Assembly (NCBI GenBank): GCA_002686195.1
Contig: NZAS01000215.1
Span: 1 to 12,595, forward strand
Source: Candidatus Pacearchaeota archaeon
GTDB taxonomy: Archaea; Nanoarchaeota; Nanoarchaeia; Pacearchaeales; GW2011-AR1
Reading direction: 5' to 3'
Length of the DNA stretch: 12,595 nt
Below the pieces are notes generated by a model, which saw only the letters and a program-made list of their open reading frames with translations, did no database searches and was not told where the DNA came from. Below are positions 2,551 through 11,295 of the stretch, piece by piece (position 1 is the first letter of the stretch; every line of letters starts with the position of its first letter). A program made the position numbers and the translations under genes.

Positions 2551-5500
2551 CTAACCACCCATAACAAACGGGTTTTTACTAAGTTTCTTAGGTGTAACAA
2601 ATTTTGGCTCTCCCCACCTATCACCACTTCTTTTTATTGTAGCCACTAGCTCACTTAGTGGGCCAAATTTTGAAAGCAGAGCCTCATCATAACCCGTGGT
2701 TTCAATAGTTGTTTCCGTAGTTCCTAATCTTTCATAATAAGTAAGTTTAGTTATAATATGATTCCCTTTTACCCCTGCCGCAGTATGCTCAACTCGCACA
2801 GAGTTACCAGCCCTTAGATATATAAACATGCGATAGAAATTTCCTACCCCCCAACTCCCGGAGAATAAATCCCCCCCAACCGCAGCAGATGTAACGCTCT
2901 CAGCAAACGTAAGATCAATTGGTGCCCCATCTAAGGTAAGAGTTTTCTCCACCATCATCCCCGCTCTACCACCATAAGCAACTGGATTATCTACAGGTTC
3001 TAAACTAGTAGACGTTGTACCATCTTGTGCTGGCCCAGTTAATTTTATTACAGGATACCCAACTATTTTACACGTTGTACGTTTAGCAGGAATGATCGCT
3101 CGTTTTAGTATCTGGGCTACTGTATCCCTCACCGAGTCTCTACTAGCCGCACTGTCATTATACTGTAAGGTATAAGTTTTAGAAATATTCTTTTCGTTCA
3201 CCATTCGACTTAAAATTTTAGCTTTGGTGGATTTAAATAAATCATTACTAGTCCCCTCACCTGCCGCAGCAGAGTCGTGCTGCTCTCGCCCTATCACACC
3301 TACAAGATTATCATCGGAGTATAAGAACCGGGTTTCAGAAATATAATCCCCATACGCAAATTTTACTTTCGTCTTACTATCGGAAGTAAAGTCAGCACTT
3401 GCATTATCCGGATTTGGAGTCAGTGATGTACTTTCATTAAATCTAGGCATAGCAGAGAACGGAGATGCTTCTTTTGAGGTATGTGGCACCGTAGTCCATC
3501 CAAATACTCCGCTGGTCGGATGCGTCACACCAGTGTCGTCTCCACCTAGTCCGGGGAGGTCTGCGGGGTCATTATTCTCTGTAGAATTCTGTATTAAAGC
3601 ATTAACCTGTATACCCTTATAGGGTTTATCTGCTTTCCTTACATCAGATATAAGCATGTAATCTGCACCCTTACCTGTCTCTTCGGTTCTAAGTACGGTA
3701 TCTTCAGTTTTAGTTGACCAAGTGTGCCCACTAGCCCATTGCACTCTACATGCATGTTTAAAAACATTATAGGCAACTCGATACTTGAAAGTTCCTGAAA
3801 CACCACTAGAGAAACCTTTTCTAGCTGTATTAAGTCTGTGCTTTTGACAGTCAGTAATATAAAAGCTGTCGGCAGTAACTCTTTCTACTCTATAATAACT
3901 ACCAGTATTCGTAGTATCTGAATCTGGATTAACTCTAGTAGGTGCGGTATTTACAGTTAAGCCACCTACATCACTCGTAGCACTGTTTATCTCGACAATT
4001 TTTATTATATTTCCCGATTCCAACTGATGAGCAGTTTTATCAATAAGTACAGCAGAGGTAGAGACAGAATGTGCATCCGCAGCCACTATAGGCCCTAATA
4101 AACCTTCATATTCTACATTATATACATCTTTAATTAGGTCTGCGGGTACTATAGCAGTGGCCCCATAATCAGCAGCCCCATGATCCATCTCTGACCCTGT
4201 TGAGGGCGGGTCTATAAACGGTCTACCTACCCCCATCCCGCTATTAGGAGAATCTGGTACTCTTGATAACCCAGCTAACCCGTTATTGGTCTGGGGAGTA
4301 ATGTTACCCGCTCCCCCTAAAGCGGTGGCTGTGCCTTCGTTGTTCCTAGTCAAATGTTGTAAGGCTCCGGTAGTCCCATCAGCTTTATATTGATGCTGTG
4401 CGTAACCGGTTGCTCCAGCAGGTAAGTTACCGAAAAAATGTATATTATCACTTTCGGGTGATCCTGTAGTAAGCCATTCTAAACCGGAAGCACTATCATC
4501 CCGTTCCCAATGAAAACGTCCCCTAGATTCGTCTGATCCACTATACGTTAGATGCCCAGTCGTAAGTTGGGCTACCCAATCCTCATTAGCGATACTGTTA
4601 ATTTTCAGCATTTCCATCTTATGCCCTAAGTCTCCAATATCTCCCGGTCTATCGTCCGTATCCACATTACGTAATCCTACATGAGAATATAAATCATCGG
4701 TATACATTCCGTGATCAAAGGTAGGCATAAGATGTACTTTAGTCAGATTGATTCGTCCAGTATCTGTTGCCACTCCCCAACCAAACTCATCTTCAGTTTC
4801 ATCATAATCTTGTGGGTATATCAAGGACAACCCTGTAGCTTCTGGGTCTATTGGTCGAGTTCCTCGCATGAAATAATTTAAATGCGGTTTATGGGCATCC
4901 AAAGAATTTTCATTAGCATTATCTCTATACATACCGGTATCTAGATAGAAATCATACCCAAACGAACCAGATAGACCGGGGGCTATAGTACATGCTTGAG
5001 GAGTCGCAGGATTAGGTACCGTTTGCTGAACTACAGCCCCTTGTAAAGTTTTAATTTTAAAATAATCATCAGTTTTTGCACTAACTATATAAGATGCGTG
5101 TGATATAGCACCGCTATTATCCTTAAATTCAACTAAATTACCATCTACATACCCGTGATCTTCCTCATAGATTACAACATCTTTACCTGTCTCATCCGCT
5201 GATGCCCAAGTACCGTAATTAGTACTATCTTCATCTATCCAATTGTACACCGCTGCTTCTGGAGTACCTGCCCCTCCTTCAGCCCCGGCTGCGGCAGCGT
5301 GGCGTTCCGTCATAGCTATGTTTTTCATAGCATCTAAAACTTTTGTATCCCTACCTGCAAATCTTCTAATTGCGGCTTCATCCTGAGCAGCAAATTCGAA
5401 CGAAGAACCTTCAAACTTAGCCTCACCCAGACTATTTGTTCCATCATAAGTATTATCTGTAAAAATATCTCGTCCATACGACCAGTCAGTTACAACCTCT

Positions 5501-6312
5501 TTTATCGTATCAGAAAGTTTCTGGTTATCGTAGGTAACCTCTTGATATTTCCCAACCTCTGTTCCTGCTTCCATACTAGTTTGTGAGAAATCCTCAGGAT
5601 TTAGCGGGGGAGTTACAAATGATCTAGTAATTAGCTCTCCTTGTAAATTAGCTAGGTAATCTGAAGCTGTAATATTAATAGTTTTACCAATCTGATCACT
5701 GTAATTAACATCCACGGAATCTATACGACCAAAAAATATGGGATAGGTTGAATACTCACTTTTAACTACCATAACCACGGTACCTGAATCGCCTGTTCCC
5801 GCTACAGTATATGAATATAATCGAGAAGTGGCGGAAGTGCCAACACCCTTTTTAAATAGGGTAAACGTGTTGGTAGTTACGGCTCTAACCTTATACGTGC
5901 CGTCAGCCATAGCCCCCGTACTTTCGTTCATCACATTTATAAACTGACCAACTAGCAAACCATGCGAGCTAAGAGTAAAAGTGATCCCAGAACCATCCCC
6001 ATCATGAGCAATTACATCCGTATAAAGTGCTCTGGGATTATGGAATATTCTAATTGGTTGAAACCGATGAAAGGTAGGATTATCCACTTCTCCTTCAACA
6101 GTGTAGATACCGGACGCTATGTTGGAGTCGTCCGACAGTTTATGGTTCATGTCAGCATTACTGATAACCAAATGTGCTTTCATTGGTCGATATACAGCAT
6201 CTACTAATTCTAATCTTTGTAAATCGCCCTGTTCACATCGAACCCACGAATACCCCCCAGTTGGTGGACGGGTATCCCAAAATTCTATAATACTTCTGCC
6301 ATGTACGGTCAT
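2551..6312 (-). CDS. Large tail hub / baseplate-like protein (1253 aa)
   Basis: Its position after the tape measure and distal-tail-like genes and before the fibre is that of the tail hub (T4 gp27 / siphophage Tal type). Residues 190-224, with FFGRIDSVDVNYSDQIGK followed by ITASDYLANLQ, look like the hub-fold strand pattern (F-x-G-R-I, later A-x-D-x-L). Near the C-terminus, residues 1030-1075 are helical and charged, and 1165-1194 (RAGNSVRVEH, then GNHIITKLTYYE) resemble the closing hub domain. Three segments at about 97-155, 375-423 and 744-826 look like degenerate copies of the small beta domain annotated in phage proteins as FCCH-like, with an H-G-L-x-x-G core and a Y-x-V-x-x-V-T-x-x-x-F ending. 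Residues 430-740 are rich in Gly, Asp and His and match nothing I recognise. No lysozyme, amidase or peptidase motif is evident. An AAGGAG lies nine bases before the ATG. The hub role is inferred mainly from context. Confidence 0.72.
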   Translation of the reverse strand: MTVHGRSIIEFWDTRPPTGGYSWVRCEQGDLQRLELVDAVYRPMKAHLVISNADMNHKLSDDSNIASGIYTVEGEVDNPTFHRFQPIRIFHNPRALYTDVIAHDGDGSGITFTLSSHGLLVGQFINVMNESTGAMADGTYKVRAVTTNTFTLFKKGVGTSATSRLYSYTVAGTGDSGTVVMVVKSEYSTYPIFFGRIDSVDVNYSDQIGKTINITASDYLANLQGELITRSFVTPPLNPEDFSQTSMEAGTEVGKYQEVTYDNQKLSDTIKEVVTDWSYGRDIFTDNTYDGTNSLGEAKFEGSSFEFAAQDEAAIRRFAGRDTKVLDAMKNIAMTERHAAAAGAEGGAGTPEAAVYNWIDEDSTNYGTWASADETGKDVVIYEEDHGYVDGNLVEFKDNSGAISHASYIVSAKTDDYFKIKTLQGAVVQQTVPNPATPQACTIAPGLSGSFGYDFYLDTGMYRDNANENSLDAHKPHLNYFMRGTRPIDPEATGLSLIYPQDYDETEDEFGWGVATDTGRINLTKVHLMPTFDHGMYTDDLYSHVGLRNVDTDDRPGDIGDLGHKMEMLKINSIANEDWVAQLTTGHLTYSGSDESRGRFHWERDDSASGLEWLTTGSPESDNIHFFGNLPAGATGYAQHQYKADGTTGALQHLTRNNEGTATALGGAGNITPQTNNGLAGLSRVPDSPNSGMGVGRPFIDPPSTGSEMDHGAADYGATAIVPADLIKDVYNVEYEGLLGPIVAADAHSVSTSAVLIDKTAHQLESGNIIKIVEINSATSDVGGLTVNTAPTRVNPDSDTTNTGSYYRVERVTADSFYITDCQKHRLNTARKGFSSGVSGTFKYRVAYNVFKHACRVQWASGHTWSTKTEDTVLRTEETGKGADYMLISDVRKADKPYKGIQVNALIQNSTENNDPADLPGLGGDDTGVTHPTSGVFGWTTVPHTSKEASPFSAMPRFNESTSLTPNPDNASADFTSDSKTKVKFAYGDYISETRFLYSDDNLVGVIGREQHDSAAAGEGTSNDLFKSTKAKILSRMVNEKNISKTYTLQYNDSAASRDSVRDTVAQILKRAIIPAKRTTCKIVGYPVIKLTGPAQDGTTSTSLEPVDNPVAYGGRAGMMVEKTLTLDGAPIDLTFAESVTSAAVGGDLFSGSWGVGNFYRMFIYLRAGNSVRVEHTAAGVKGNHIITKLTYYERLGTTETTIETTGYDEALLSKFGPLSELVATIKRSGDRWGEPKFVTPKKLSKNPFVMGG

Positions 6313-6894: not shown

Positions 6895-7386
6895 CTAACC
6901 TTCATTGAAATGGGGATAATACGATTTAGCCCTACTACATGCAAGTGTCATAGAGAACGTCGGGCGTTCCTCTGACGCAGCCATATAATCCAAAGCTAAA
7001 TTTTGTAGGGCTGATGTATATCTAAAAAAGCTGACATTAACTCCATTGTCTGGATTTAAAATATATAAATATATAGACTGTCCTGAATCATACCACCAGT
7101 CTGTAGACATACGGGACATCTGGTAAGCAGTTGGAATTCTATATGTTTCTGAACCTGAGTCTAGGGTTACTCCTACAGTCCCCCCACCACTTTGGTCATC
7201 GACTACTCCGACTAAGGTTATAATAGGTTTATAAATTCCTAGGTCGAACAAATATGGACTCATCTTCGGGGCAGCTATTTGAACCGGATTTTTTTGAATA
7301 GCAAGTGTTATCTTCTCTACCTGCAAGGCATACTTTTCGGTAGTGGAGGTGTTTTTAATAAATACATTTAAGTCTTCTGTAGCCAT
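6895..7386 (-). CDS. Distal-tail / baseplate-ring-like protein, paralogue A (163 aa)
   Basis: This 163-residue, mostly beta protein is paralogous to the next gene: YAL at 19, SPYLFDLGIYKP at 43-54, TYRIPT at 81-86, W97, and FSMTLACSR at 144-152 all have counterparts in the same order. The pattern S-P-x-L-F-D-[LI]-G-x-Y-x-P followed by alternating hydrophobic residues suggests a tail-tube or distal-tail type beta sandwich. Its place directly after the tape measure supports a role at the tail tip. The start ATG has AGGA about nine bases upstream, 15 bases after the tape measure stop. I cannot name a specific family with certainty. Confidence 0.7.
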   Translation of the reverse strand: MATEDLNVFIKNTSTTEKYALQVEKITLAIQKNPVQIAAPKMSPYLFDLGIYKPIITLVGVVDDQSGGGTVGVTLDSGSETYRIPTAYQMSRMSTDWWYDSGQSIYLYILNPDNGVNVSFFRYTSALQNLALDYMAASEERPTFSMTLACSRAKSYYPHFNEG

Positions 7387-7401: not shown

Positions 7402-8964
7402 TTACGGAAAAGTGGAGTAATCTTCTTCGAACTTTACATCAACTCGTTTACCATTCTGCTCATACTGAACAATTTGTTGCGTCCCATCGTGCCCACCAAA
7501 GGTAATCTTCAAATCCATTTGTTTACCTCCAAAACCCCCCTCCTGCTCAGAACCTGCTTGACTTATCGTCATTGTATCCCCTGAACCCGAAACTGTGTAG
7601 TCTGTACCTTCGAACCCTAAACTCGACGCTAGTGAATATTTCGATCTCTTACCTTTTACTATTTCATCCATAAGTTGGTTTCGTTGAACATCCATAGCTT
7701 TTTTATTAGTTCTTACGTCTGCTCCACCAGCACCTCTAACAAAAGCTAGCATGGGGTCTTTCTCTATTGCTGATGTAATTTGGCTTTGCCTTATATAATT
7801 TCTAACTTTTTCGGACATTTGCGCCCCAACAACAGTAGTCTCTACTATCTGACGTTGGAAGGCTTTTAGAGGTTCTACAGACTCATCAGTAGTATCAGCA
7901 GTTTTCTGTATCGCAGCAGATAAGATTACCCCACTCTCAGTTACCTTATCTGAAAATTTTCTAGTTGATGACGCTATAAAAAGAGGGACAGAATATCCCG
8001 CTAATCCTTGTTGCCCTGCTACGTCCATCCCACCTCTTCCGCCTTTTTCGCTATCTTTGTCAAACATCTTATCAAACAGCCAGTTTCCTGCTGTAGCCCC
8101 CAACGCACCTCCAGCCATAGTTCCTAGAGGGCCTAGAGCACTCCCTAAGATTGCGCCTCCAGTAGCCATAGCACCCGATGTTACACCTCTACCTATAGAC
8201 ATTCCTTTTGACATACCTTTATTTCGTCCACCAGCATAACCTGTAATACCACCTATTATACCACCTGCGGCACCTCCCGCAACTCTTCCAACGGTTCCAA
8301 GTGCATTACCCCGTGACAAAGCAAGCCTTGAAAGCGTTCCACCGCCGCTCGTCGCCGCTCCCCTAGCTACGGTGGTAGTTCCTTGTGTTGCTACTGCTGC
8401 TGCGCCACGACCCGGAAGGAGACTGGATGCTTTTGATATAATACCTCTTGTTGCACCCCCCGATCTAAGCCCTAGCACACTACCACCCAACCTACCCATT
8501 TTTAACGTTAGGTTTATGGCAACTAGTCCTGCTAAGAATAGCCCTGCCCATTTTGCCCAGTCCCTACTGAAAAATTTACCTACTTTATCTACGCCTCTAA
8601 ATATAGACCCTATGAAATTAACTACCTTAGGCATCATTTTTTCAGCCGCCGCAGCAATCATAGGTATCTTTTTACCTAAATCTGCTAGGGCTTTAAATGC
8701 AATGGGGGCTAAGGGAGCCAGTATGGTATCAATAAGTGCTCCAACTATAGCGAAGATGTTTCCTAGATAACCTGTGAAAATCTGGGATTGTTTAAGGAGT
8801 GCGCCTAAACCTAGGTCTATACCAACTAATTTCTTCAGGCTTTGCCCTAGAGTTTTGCCTGTTTTGTCTCCTCCTATACCGCCACTACCATTACCGGTTT
8901 TGGAACTACTGGGATCGCCATATTCAACCACCATTCTTTCAACGTCTTTTGCCCCGCTAACCAA
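7402..8964 (-). CDS. Tape measure protein (520 aa), TTG start
   Basis: Tape measure proteins fill the tail tube, set its length and help pass DNA through the host membrane. This one lies just after the frameshifted chaperone pair, its usual place. Residues 51-97 are hydrophobic and helical (core FTGYLGNIFAIVGALIDTIL), followed by a second hydrophobic stretch at 139-152. A long glycine-rich zone at about 222-296 holds many small-x-x-x-small spacings and could insert into membranes. The C-terminal part, about 330-520, is hydrophilic, with a beta-rich end. The TTG start is supported by AAGGAG seven bases upstream and by its 8-base overlap with the end of the T frame; the next ATG (residue 11) has no such site. 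At 520 residues it is short for the family. The common rule of about 1.5 angstrom per residue would give a tail of roughly 80 nm. Confidence 0.85.
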   Translation of the reverse strand: MVSGAKDVERMVVEYGDPSSSKTGNGSGGIGGDKTGKTLGQSLKKLVGIDLGLGALLKQSQIFTGYLGNIFAIVGALIDTILAPLAPIAFKALADLGKKIPMIAAAAEKMMPKVVNFIGSIFRGVDKVGKFFSRDWAKWAGLFLAGLVAINLTLKMGRLGGSVLGLRSGGATRGIISKASSLLPGRGAAAVATQGTTTVARGAATSGGGTLSRLALSRGNALGTVGRVAGGAAGGIIGGITGYAGGRNKGMSKGMSIGRGVTSGAMATGGAILGSALGPLGTMAGGALGATAGNWLFDKMFDKDSEKGGRGGMDVAGQQGLAGYSVPLFIASSTRKFSDKVTESGVILSAAIQKTADTTDESVEPLKAFQRQIVETTVVGAQMSEKVRNYIRQSQITSAIEKDPMLAFVRGAGGADVRTNKKAMDVQRNQLMDEIVKGKRSKYSLASSLGFEGTDYTVSGSGDTMTISQAGSEQEGGFGGKQMDLKITFGGHDGTQQIVQYEQNGKRVDVKFEEDYSTFP

Positions 8965-9534
8965 ATCCTCGCTCCTTCGTAGCTATAGCTCCGTATAATT
9001 CCATCATCATATCAATCTCCTTAGGATGTAATTCATCTATTTCTGACCAGCTAAAACCTAATTTCATTAGATTATACTTTACCATATAGTGAGCAAACAC
9101 CAAATTTTCTGTAGGGGTCACCATATCGCCCCCTCTCAGATAGAGGGCTATTCTTTTTTTAGTTCATCATCCTCTTCATTTGCATCTTCAAAAGCTTTTG
9201 GAACTAGCGTTTCTAAGGCTCTACCAAGCTTCTCATTAATACTTATAAGGAATGTATCGGTTGTTTTACCCCATGGCGCATCAACAAGAATAGCTTTTAA
9301 ACATTCTTTCACATAACTATCGGCATCGAATGACATACCCGCTGAATCCGATCCAAATTTCATTGCTTGGGCTACAAGCTGATTCTTTCTACTCCAAGAT
9401 AAGGGTTTGATTTTAACTTCGAATGTGGTGTCATCTACAGCTATCTTCTTTGTTTCAACTGCATTTGTCACCATATACTGATTTACATCAAACTCTTTTT
9501 TCACTTGGCTAGTCTTTGCTTTCGCTGTTGTCAT
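8957..9534 (-). CDS. Tail assembly chaperone G-T fusion made by -1 frameshift (192 aa)
   Basis: If ribosomes slip back one base at the A run (9154-9160), the first 127 residues of the chaperone join 65 more residues read in the -1 frame to a TAG at 8957-8959. I read this extension codon by codon: it starts RIALYLRGGDMV, includes KLGFSWSEIDELHPKEID, and ends ATKERGFG. The -1 frame is closed by a TGA at 9164-9166, so the two frames overlap only across about 16 bases containing the slip site. This is the arrangement of lambda gpG/gpGT and equivalents in most long-tailed phages. The T-like part contacts tube subunits while the G-like part coats the tape measure. T-like domains are often small and helical with a short LG-x-[ST]-x-x-E-[IV] segment, as seen here. 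It could instead start separately at the ATG at 9124, which has AGAGGGGG just upstream. Confidence 0.85.
8972..8977 (-). promoter_or_regulatory. Ribosome binding site fixing the TTG start of the tape measure gene
   Basis: AAGGAG lies inside the end of the T reading frame, seven bases before the TTG at 8964. It decides the start, since no in-frame ATG or GTG lies at a suitable distance. The TTG overlaps the T stop region by eight bases, so ribosomes finishing the G-T fusion could reinitiate here. Confidence 0.7.
9131..9160 (-). promoter_or_regulatory. Programmed -1 ribosomal frameshift signal (A7 slippery run plus hairpin)
   Basis: On the minus strand, the zero-frame codons CTA-AAA-AAA-GAA contain the heptamer A AAA AAA (9160 to 9154), a canonical X XXY YYZ slip site. 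A six-base spacer (GAATAG, containing the zero-frame stop) follows. Then comes a perfect six-base-pair hairpin, CCCTCT at 9147-9142 and AGAGGG at 9136-9131, with the five-base loop ATCTG. Spacing and order match known frameshift signals in phage tail chaperone genes. All parts are read directly from the sequence; efficiency is unknown. Confidence 0.88.
9148..9534 (-). CDS. Tail assembly chaperone, G-like unshifted product (128 aa)
   Basis: This 128-residue protein lies between the tail tube and tape measure genes. It has a lysine-rich start, a short beta part at about 30-44 (the segment around TTFEVKIKPLSW), then mostly helices and a very acidic end at 113-125 before KKE. The layout, a beta hairpin ending in a P-L-S-W-x-x-x-x-x-L segment followed by helices, is typical of phage tail assembly chaperones. 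These are needed to fold and gather the tape measure and tube but are absent from the finished virion. The start has a full AGGAGG that overlaps the tube stop codon. The zero-frame stop TAG at 9148-9150 follows the slippery run by only three bases; most ribosomes are expected to stop here, giving an excess over the G-T fusion. Confidence 0.87.
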   Translation of the reverse strand: MTTAKAKTSQVKKEFDVNQYMVTNAVETKKIAVDDTTFEVKIKPLSWSRKNQLVAQAMKFGSDSAGMSFDADSYVKECLKAILVDAPWGKTTDTFLISINEKLGRALETLVPKAFEDANEEDDELKKE

Positions 9535-9543
9535 TATTTCCTC

Positions 9544-11295
9544 CTATGGATACAATGGTTGGTTATCTACAATGGTTATCCCCATATTCCTAAATATAAA
9601 GGCTGCTGCTACTTCAAATGGGTTTGATCCGTCTATCGGATGCGGAGCCTCTGTTAGATAAGCTCCTTGATTATTTATTCCGGTGGCTGCGGCTACATCC
9701 ATACCAGCAACAACATCATCCGTTGGGATATCTATCGTGATTTTATGGTCTACACCTGAAATTGCAGTTCCGTCAACACCCGTCATTACAGCACCCTTGT
9801 TAAATGTTAGTTGTATAGCAAAACCTTTCATACCTGAACCAGTACCATCGGCTAGTCCATAATCTCCTTCTAGTAATAACTCTTTGAATAAACTAGCAGT
9901 AGAGCCAGTTAGAGATGCTTCTGAGTCTGGTAAAGCAATAGTAGCAGACATAGTATATTCCCTACGCATTTCTACCAAATCATTAGGGCCTCTTTGCCTA
10001 CTGTCTCCTCGACGTTCAATGTAATACCTAGGTTCAACATTGTTATTGATAGTAATGGAGAAATTCCTTACACGAGCAAAAGTTTGCCCAAAAACTGAAA
10101 CAGTACCTTGCGAGAAGTAATAAGGGTCTTGCGTTGGATATGCTAACGCAGAAGCAGCCCCTGTTCTAGAACCTATATTATCAGATTCAACCTTCAGAAA
10201 ATGGGAAAAGAATGGTAACGCCTCACTGCCTGAGAAGTTAGAATCTAATTTCTGGTTATGAATTCCCCCCATAAACGGGATGGTATCCCATCCCATTACC
10301 AATAGTCCGCCTTCTTCTGCTGAAAGGGTAGCAGCCCCTATCTTACCACCATAAAATCTCCGGTCAAAGTCATTATCTGAGGTTTCCCCACTATCCCTCA
10401 TATGCACATTCATAGAAATACTATCTAACACATTCTCTTCATGGATGGTATGCCTGAAGTAGTTAACCGCTCCAGTAGAACCATTCATAGGAGTTACAGC
10501 AGCAGCGGTAGCGTGATCAAATCGTAAAGGATCACTTATACGTACTTTATGCGATCCAACGGCACTTATAATCCGAACAACTTCCGCAGTAGACGTTGCC
10601 CCCACCTGTACATAATCATGCTGCTCTACATTACTTGATGATCCTGAGTTAAGTTGTAGGAAATAATCTCCTTTTTTATGTGCTCCATCTAGAGCCGTAG
10701 CGGTATCTGTGGTACCAGTCATAATAGTATTTATCCTACCTATGGGAAAACGTAGAGGCCAACCATTCAGCAAGATGAAACTAGGCACAGACCCACTAAA
10801 GGCTTGAGTGCCTTTGTATGCGGCTGTAAAATTCCGTTTCGACGCTGTTCCTAGATAGTATCTAGGCTCAATAGTAGGTGTAAAATCTGGAACTGTTACT
10901 GTGTCATACACTCCGGGTATGTAAGTGATATGCTTGTCATTATCGTTGTCAGTAGCTTCTGTAGCAACTTTTACTGTTTGCCCAGATGCGTGGTAAGCAG
11001 CAAGGGGAGCATCTACGTAATATACATCATTCGATCCTGCTTCTAATACTCCAACCACCCGCCTAATTTCTACTTCCTGTTGTGTAGCCCCGGCACCAAC
11101 AGTTCCTATAGCTACATATTGCCCCGCTGTAAAAGCCGTACTGCTAGTAAAACTTGTAGCCCCGGCATTAACCGCCGCTGCTAGGGTGCCAGAACCGGAA
11201 GATGTCCCGTTGTTGACTCCACTTTCTCGATATCCTCCAAGTGCAGCTTCGGACGCGAAGGTTACTACAGCTTGATCCGAACGATAAATTGCCAT
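9544..11295 (-). CDS. Major tail tube protein (583 aa), probably with duplicated tube domain and inserts
   Basis: It lies between the tail terminator and the assembly chaperone, the place of the tube subunit. The N-terminus (YRSDQAVVTFASEAALGGY) and the stretch around residue 410 (VRNFSITINNNVEPRYY) are typical of tail tube proteins. EPRYY occurs twice, at 143-147 and 421-425, each followed by basic residues and then alternating strands (about 165-175 with FSGSVPSFIL; 447-455 with YTMSATIAL). This suggests two tube folds in one chain, as in phage T5 pb6, where such a subunit forms trimeric rings. Two further segments at about 38-112 and 198-268 resemble each other: a strand, a G-x-[YD]-[VF] type turn, V-x-[IV]-G, then E-V-x-[IR]-I and a His near the end. 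They look like surface-exposed beta inserts. AAGGAG lies seven bases before the ATG. At 583 residues it is much longer than common single-domain tube proteins (about 150-250). Confidence 0.82.
   Translation of the reverse strand: MAIYRSDQAVVTFASEAALGGYRESGVNNGTSSGSGTLAAAVNAGATSFTSSTAFTAGQYVAIGTVGAGATQQEVEIRRVVGVLEAGSNDVYYVDAPLAAYHASGQTVKVATEATDNDNDKHITYIPGVYDTVTVPDFTPTIEPRYYLGTASKRNFTAAYKGTQAFSGSVPSFILLNGWPLRFPIGRINTIMTGTTDTATALDGAHKKGDYFLQLNSGSSSNVEQHDYVQVGATSTAEVVRIISAVGSHKVRISDPLRFDHATAAAVTPMNGSTGAVNYFRHTIHEENVLDSISMNVHMRDSGETSDNDFDRRFYGGKIGAATLSAEEGGLLVMGWDTIPFMGGIHNQKLDSNFSGSEALPFFSHFLKVESDNIGSRTGAASALAYPTQDPYYFSQGTVSVFGQTFARVRNFSITINNNVEPRYYIERRGDSRQRGPNDLVEMRREYTMSATIALPDSEASLTGSTASLFKELLLEGDYGLADGTGSGMKGFAIQLTFNKGAVMTGVDGTAISGVDHKITIDIPTDDVVAGMDVAAATGINNQGAYLTEAPHPIDGSNPFEVAAAFIFRNMGITIVDNQPLYP

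Follow-up and report, generated by a model that had tools for sequence, protein, structure and literature searches.

Between the genes for a tail tube protein and a probable tape measure protein, the stretch of DNA analysed here (the window, 12,595 nucleotides) carries two overlapping reading frames, which raises the question of whether they are translated separately or joined into a longer tail assembly chaperone by a -1 ribosomal frameshift. The features concerned, all on the minus strand, are listed in the order of translation.

9544..11295, minus strand: tail tube protein, the upstream gene (Pfam Phage_tube_2, E 2.8e-10)
9534-9148, minus strand: chaperone ORF (G-like, 0 frame), 128 aa, from the ORF and PHROG, profile and fold matches
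9170..9174, minus strand: GAGGA, SD-like, 9 nt 5' of the heptamer, read directly
9160-9154, minus strand: slippery heptamer A AAA AAA in the 0-frame phase X XXY YYZ, read directly
8957..9163, minus strand: -1 frame (T-like), from after TGA 9166-9164 to TAG 8959-8957
9150-9148, minus strand: 0-frame stop TAG, one codon past the heptamer
9128..9148, minus strand: hairpin with a 6-bp or an alternative 7-bp stem, from RNA folding
9122..9135, minus strand: possible free T start, GAGGGGG 9135-9129 in the 3' arm of the hairpin and ATG 9124-9122, 55 aa
7402..8964, minus strand: probable tape measure protein, the next gene, whose TTG start at 8964 overlaps the T stop by 8 nt

Read directly, the 128-aa ORF ends in GAA CTA AAA AAA GAA TAG. 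A -1 slip after K127 adds 65 residues and yields a fusion of 192 aa (127+65). The first-pass annotation had described A AAA AAA, a six-base spacer and a 6-bp hairpin at this place, as well as a -1 frame that opens after TGA 9166-9164, ends with TAG at 8957 and adds 65 residues. Direct reading confirmed the coordinates of these elements and the extent of the frame; the spacer is GAATAG (9153-9148), with the 0-frame TAG included. Runs of seven A are not rare as such in the window (2 seen versus 3.9 expected). The second run, at 7289-7295 (minus strand), lies inside the ORF 6895-7386 and is, as counted here, out of slip phase.

The identity of the 0-frame product is supported by several types of comparison. 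In PHROG, the 128-aa protein hits tail assembly chaperones with E 1.1e-5 to 3.7e-5, and the profile of its family matches HVTV1_129 (95.5%) and HHTV2_47 (97.2%), with no match to gene 122 of HCTV-1. The model of the chaperone (mean pLDDT 75) gave five Foldseek matches in BFVD with E up to 0.001, three of them named tail assembly chaperones (from HHTV-2, E 7.2e-5 for gene 47, and from two Bacillus phages) and two without a telling name. The fold match to Mu FS-gp41 was weak (E 0.012), no solved structure in the PDB matched with any weight, and tblastn of the chaperone, at E up to 1, found no match in 50,697 phage records. For the upstream gene, tblastn gave partial matches to the tail tubes of HHTV-2 and HCTV-5 (25-34% identity). 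The tape measure assignment is based on a weak PHROG match (E 0.89) and on the position of the gene, which is as in HVTV-1. Further along the window, the minus strand encodes a tail-fibre-like protein (548-2542) that ends in Peptidase_S74, an endosialidase chaperone (E 2.2e-13), and a 1253-aa tail-region ORF (2551-6312) with a weak PHROG match (E 1.1e-4) and no tblastn match among the 50,697 phage records.

A protein search with the chaperone identified 77 homologues; the search admitted lengths of up to 1.75x the 128 aa of the query. A profile made from 65 of the 77 was then used against viral contigs, and the best 80 of 95, plus one genome contig, were kept. The resulting 82 loci (the window and 81 related ones) were reduced to 62 non-redundant loci by merging at 90% nucleotide identity. 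An in-frame X XXY YYZ heptamer was found 1-5 codons before the 0-frame stop in 82/82 loci, and in all 82 the -1 frame that it leads into is conserved and 67-92 codons long. The heptamer is A AAA AAA in 80 loci, A AAA AAC in one (L077) and U UUA AAA in one (L017), or 60, 1 and 1 among the non-redundant loci; in 44/62 of the latter, a single codon separates it from the stop. AAG was never used at the slip site (0/62), although it accounts for 156 of the 597 Lys codons in the rest of the gene (relatedness uncorrected). Approximately the last 8 codons of 356 other stop-to-stop frames (at least 100 codons, same strand, 62 loci) were scanned as a control: A AAA AAA was present near the end of 0/356, and any X XXY YYZ heptamer in 9/356. 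Chance heptamers do occur, as an extra one was found further upstream in L009, L012 and L045; where there were several, the one nearest the stop was counted. The longest ORF following T starts with an ATG 2-25 nt past the T stop in 54/62 loci, with starts chosen mechanically.

The carboxy-terminal ends of the 77 homologues offer a further view of the slip site. KK is found within the last 16 residues in 47 proteins, FF at the same place in 6, and one has neither; the remaining end, ENL followed by K, N, E or S, characterizes 23/77 homologues (among P0019-P0044), which represent a sister clade. If these residues are kept for the slip, the distant FF clade should have poly-U, and U UUU UUU was predicted before the DNA was fetched. 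Both loci that were fetched (L091, 3001-3336, and L092, 3001-3330) carry U UUU UUC in phase at the homologous site, at a distance of 7 codons from the 0-frame stop, and their -1 frames are 76 and 77 codons long; three other loci from the FF-clade search were on contigs already counted. Based on the invariant E-N-L, we predict A AAU UUA for the sister clade. A DNA scan with P0021 for this clade matched a single contig, that of L004.

The first-pass annotation had singled out relatives that lost the A7 run or the hairpin and keep T as a separate gene as the case that would speak against it. When such relatives were looked for, the slip heptamer was found to be kept in 82/82 loci and in both poly-U loci, and the 4/84 loci without A7 each have another X XXY YYZ in place.

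The -1 frame is also conserved as a protein. The 62 extensions align, opening with KKRxxxFLRG and having LLKxGIxWE mid-way, and the extension of the window is 85% identical to that of L001 and 60% to that of L004. Conservation of the 65-residue frame, which the first-pass annotation had left to be checked, holds across 62 non-redundant rows, including the stretch from the slip site to the internal ATG. The AlphaFold model of T consists of four helices (mean pLDDT 88.8). No family in Pfam or NCBIfam fits T, its only PHROG matches (E 0.04 and 0.1) are to families of unknown function, all 62 T members together hit three PHROG families with one member each, and no PDB fold of weight was found. Of the two parts for which a search against tail chaperone profiles had been suggested, the 128-aa part matches PHROG chaperones, and the 65-residue part matches no family scanned.

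Downstream of the heptamer, the hairpin of the window can be drawn in two registers. The 6-bp stem pairs CCCTCT (9147-9142) with AGAGGG (9136-9131) around the loop ATCTG, and the 7-bp register pairs GCCCTCT (9148-9142) with AGGGGGC (9134-9128), which shortens the spacer to 5 nt and has the higher predicted stability (-11.6 versus -9.4 kcal/mol). The local fold of 38 nt has a z of -2.45, with 5/200 shuffles equally stable, and the 6-bp hairpin is present in a 75-nt fold from the TAG onward. The stem begins 5 or 6 nt past the heptamer, where stimulatory stems for programmed -1 frameshifting are sought at about 5-9 nt, yet a different structure beats it when 60-65 nt from the heptamer end are folded (65-nt piece: z -0.23, 79/200 shuffles equally stable), so that the strength of the hairpin in the real mRNA is uncertain.

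Across the relatives, RNA structure was compared with synonymous recodings of the -1 frame, a null that removes the protein signal. The window hairpin exceeds this null (p=0.037). Folding was better than 95% of recodings in 29/62 loci, versus 2/62 in each of two downstream controls; the other 33/62 loci had no structure excess over recoding. With a stem placed to start 4-10 nt past the heptamer, 22/62 loci went beyond the recodings (controls 4/62 and 2/62) and 40/62 showed no excess under this stricter placement. Three of the 22 placed stems are compact hairpins of 7-9 bp with loops of 4-7 nt (window, L001 and L004), and the remaining 19, which are longer, have 9-13 bp and close 16-31 nt. Dinucleotide-shuffle z scores did not discriminate (mean -0.93 for the downstream region versus -0.49, -1.09 and -0.18 for controls). 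Pairing in a fixed register exceeded that of mismatched partners for all 62 loci (z 5.0) and for a clade of 10 (z 3.8), with no excess in the other 52 loci (z 1.0). One fixed stem register for all loci was considered and rejected, since a partner shifted by one base scores nearly as high (mean 5.4 versus 5.58 of 9 pairs), and the RNAalifold consensus across all 62 loci was empty. The proposed alignment across relatives bears out the slip site; the sequence of the hairpin is conserved within the near clade only. Between the window and L001, which share 86% nucleotide identity overall, the longest identical run is a 55-nt stretch across slip site and hairpin. On the 5' side, SD-like motifs precede the heptamer in 16/62 loci versus 11.5% of control positions; GAGGA at 9170..9174 may be a 5' stimulator, or could simply mirror acidic codons.

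Could T be made as a separate protein, started at ATG 9124 or by stop-start coupling, without any fusion? Internal starts are present in the window and many relatives, and in the window and its near relatives the ATG is well spaced from an SD-like motif (GAGG, 7 nt 5' of ATG 9124 in the window). TAATG is found at the 0-frame stop in 13/62 loci, and public protein predictions hold the -1 frame as a free protein (36 matches, five of them 55 aa long and 82-98% identical to that of the window). However, the first 22 codons of the -1 frame lack ATG in 33/62 loci and lack ATG, GTG and TTG in 17/62, and L004, the second nearest relative, has no ATG at this place. The conserved FLRG stretch sits between the slip site and the internal ATG, so that a start there would not produce it, and the invariant heptamer would be left unexplained. 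We consider exclusively separate translation quite improbable, although free T may also be made alongside the fusion. The earlier expectation that a standard gene caller would miss the product holds for the fusion, as 0/77 chaperone homologues are longer than 152 aa, but not for the 55-aa piece from the internal ATG, which is predicted in related contigs.

Two other explanations place the frame change outside the ribosome. Transcriptional slippage on the A7 run would shift the frame in the mRNA, and a 7-A homopolymer is indeed present in 80/82 loci. L077 (AAAAAAC) and L017 (UUUAAAA) break this run and nevertheless keep the tandem tRNA slip, the heptamer stands in a fixed phase relative to the 0 frame, and part of the loci have placed RNA stems downstream, all of which make this explanation very improbable. 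Homopolymers are also prone to sequencing error, and an error in the A run could have split a single gene. The same -1 split would then have to be an artefact in 84/84 loci (62 of the first 82 being non-redundant), none of the 77 homologues is fused (>152 aa), and heptamers other than A7 exist; the chance that an error accounts for the split is practically negligible.

Together, the above observations argue for programmed -1 ribosomal frameshifting by a cassette of the lambda G/GT kind, an explanation to which we assign, from sequence data, a probability of about 0.93. Direct support comes from the heptamer, its phase, the open and conserved -1 frame, the RNA structure excess in part of the family, and the gene order. 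The G/GT tail chaperone reading that the first-pass annotation had put forward is well supported by the heptamer, the conservation of the -1 frame, the chaperone homology and the gene order. In the frameshift mechanism, most ribosomes would terminate at TAG 9150-9148 and release the 128-aa chaperone. A minority would pause at the hairpin or the stop, and the lysyl-tRNAs occupying the P and A sites would both move back by one base and pair again with A AAA AAA, after which translation would proceed in the -1 frame to TAG 8957 and give the 192-aa fusion. By analogy with lambda, the short form would coat the tape measure and the T domain would bring tail tube subunits.

It is also conceivable, if rather doubtful, that the hairpin has a dual role, in that its stability drives the -1 frameshift and the SD-like GAGGGGG in its 3' arm serves ATG 9124, so that G, GT and free T would all be made, three products in total. 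A ribosome opening the hairpin would then also let the free 55-aa T start, and the relatives with a TAATG stop-start overlap (13/62) would reach the same end by that route.

The frameshift cassette can be compared with several known systems. Lambda slips on G GGA AAG and thus differs in its heptamer, and its likeness to the window is one of described architecture, not of direct sequence comparison with lambda G or T. According to excerpts of PMC5009743, the lambda chaperone gene gives, as is proposed for the window, a short product and a -1 extended one that function together with the tape measure and the tail tube: the tape measure becomes coated with the short form, the extra domain of the long form recruits tail tube subunits, and the ratio of long to short is set by slip efficiency. 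In the same excerpts and those of PMC8211752, G/GT is described as spread in long-tailed phages and in the archaeal viruses HVTV-1 and HCTV-1, -2 and -5. Excerpts of other papers mention, for the archaeal siphovirus Hardycor1, a predicted -1 slip of its chaperone on G GGA AAT (HrrHc1_110/115, likened here by description alone; PMC7911831), a possible +1 shift in HF1-like viruses (PMC7230728), and a PRFect count for SEA-PHAGES genomes of 2397 joined chaperone genes (PMC10885494).

The gene order of the window (tail tube, chaperone, probable tape measure) is shared with HVTV-1, a Haloarcula virus of the Druskaviridae in which a joined chaperone is annotated between chaperone and tape measure. 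The annotated fusion of HVTV-1 genes 129/130 is at the same place, and a -1 slip on G GGA AAG reproduces its exact end; likewise, a -1 slip on G GGA AAC reproduces the annotated fusion end of HCTV-1 genes 122/123. The window differs from both in its heptamer, A AAA AAA, and no sequence kinship was found between T of the window family and T of HVTV-1. The window ORF 11806-12438 matches HVTV-1 gene 125, which is separated from the tail tube by two genes in HVTV-1 and by one ORF in the window. In the HHTV-2 record, genes 47 and 48 are separate, unlike the joined HVTV-1 gene. Among the literature matches listed, no paper dealt with a frameshift in this virus group, subscription papers being mostly outside the coverage. 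Given the lambda, haloarchaeal and SEA-PHAGES cases, such a frameshift is nothing unusual among tailed viruses; what is new is the addition of this virus group and its T domain to a known kind.

For the host of this virus group, replication genes were analyzed in the records of 18 of the 81 relatives (G001-G018) and in 14 control genomes. A family A DNA polymerase was found in 18/18 records, and matches to PolB, PCNA, MCM and Cpn60 in 0/18. In the controls, PolA was restricted to the bacteria (10) and PCNA to the 4 archaea, and PolB was found in E. coli as well as the 4 archaea; MCM and Cpn60 gave matches in every one of the 14 controls and are not discriminating. An archaeal host was considered on account of the weak likeness of tail genes to haloarchaeal viruses, and is countered by PolA in 18/18 records and PCNA or PolB in none. 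Judged from these genes, a bacterial host appears more likely. Terminase_6N was found in 0/12 records, and no tRNAs in the 26 loci scanned. The one genome contig among the relatives is labelled as a Maricaulis MAG and may be misbinned. In the 18 records, all with a family A DNA polymerase, the tail module is nearest, among named records, to haloarchaeal viruses. The virus group is possibly a mosaic, with an archaeal-like tail and replication genes of bacterial-phage type.

The extension supplies the missing half of the tail chaperone for a large group of mostly uncultured viruses, with a T domain that is absent from the family libraries scanned (Pfam, PHROGs and NCBIfam). The group also provides a natural series of heptamers at one homologous site (A AAA AAA, A AAA AAC, U UUA AAA and U UUU UUC), which would be useful for testing what a frameshift site requires. 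The principle itself is well known.
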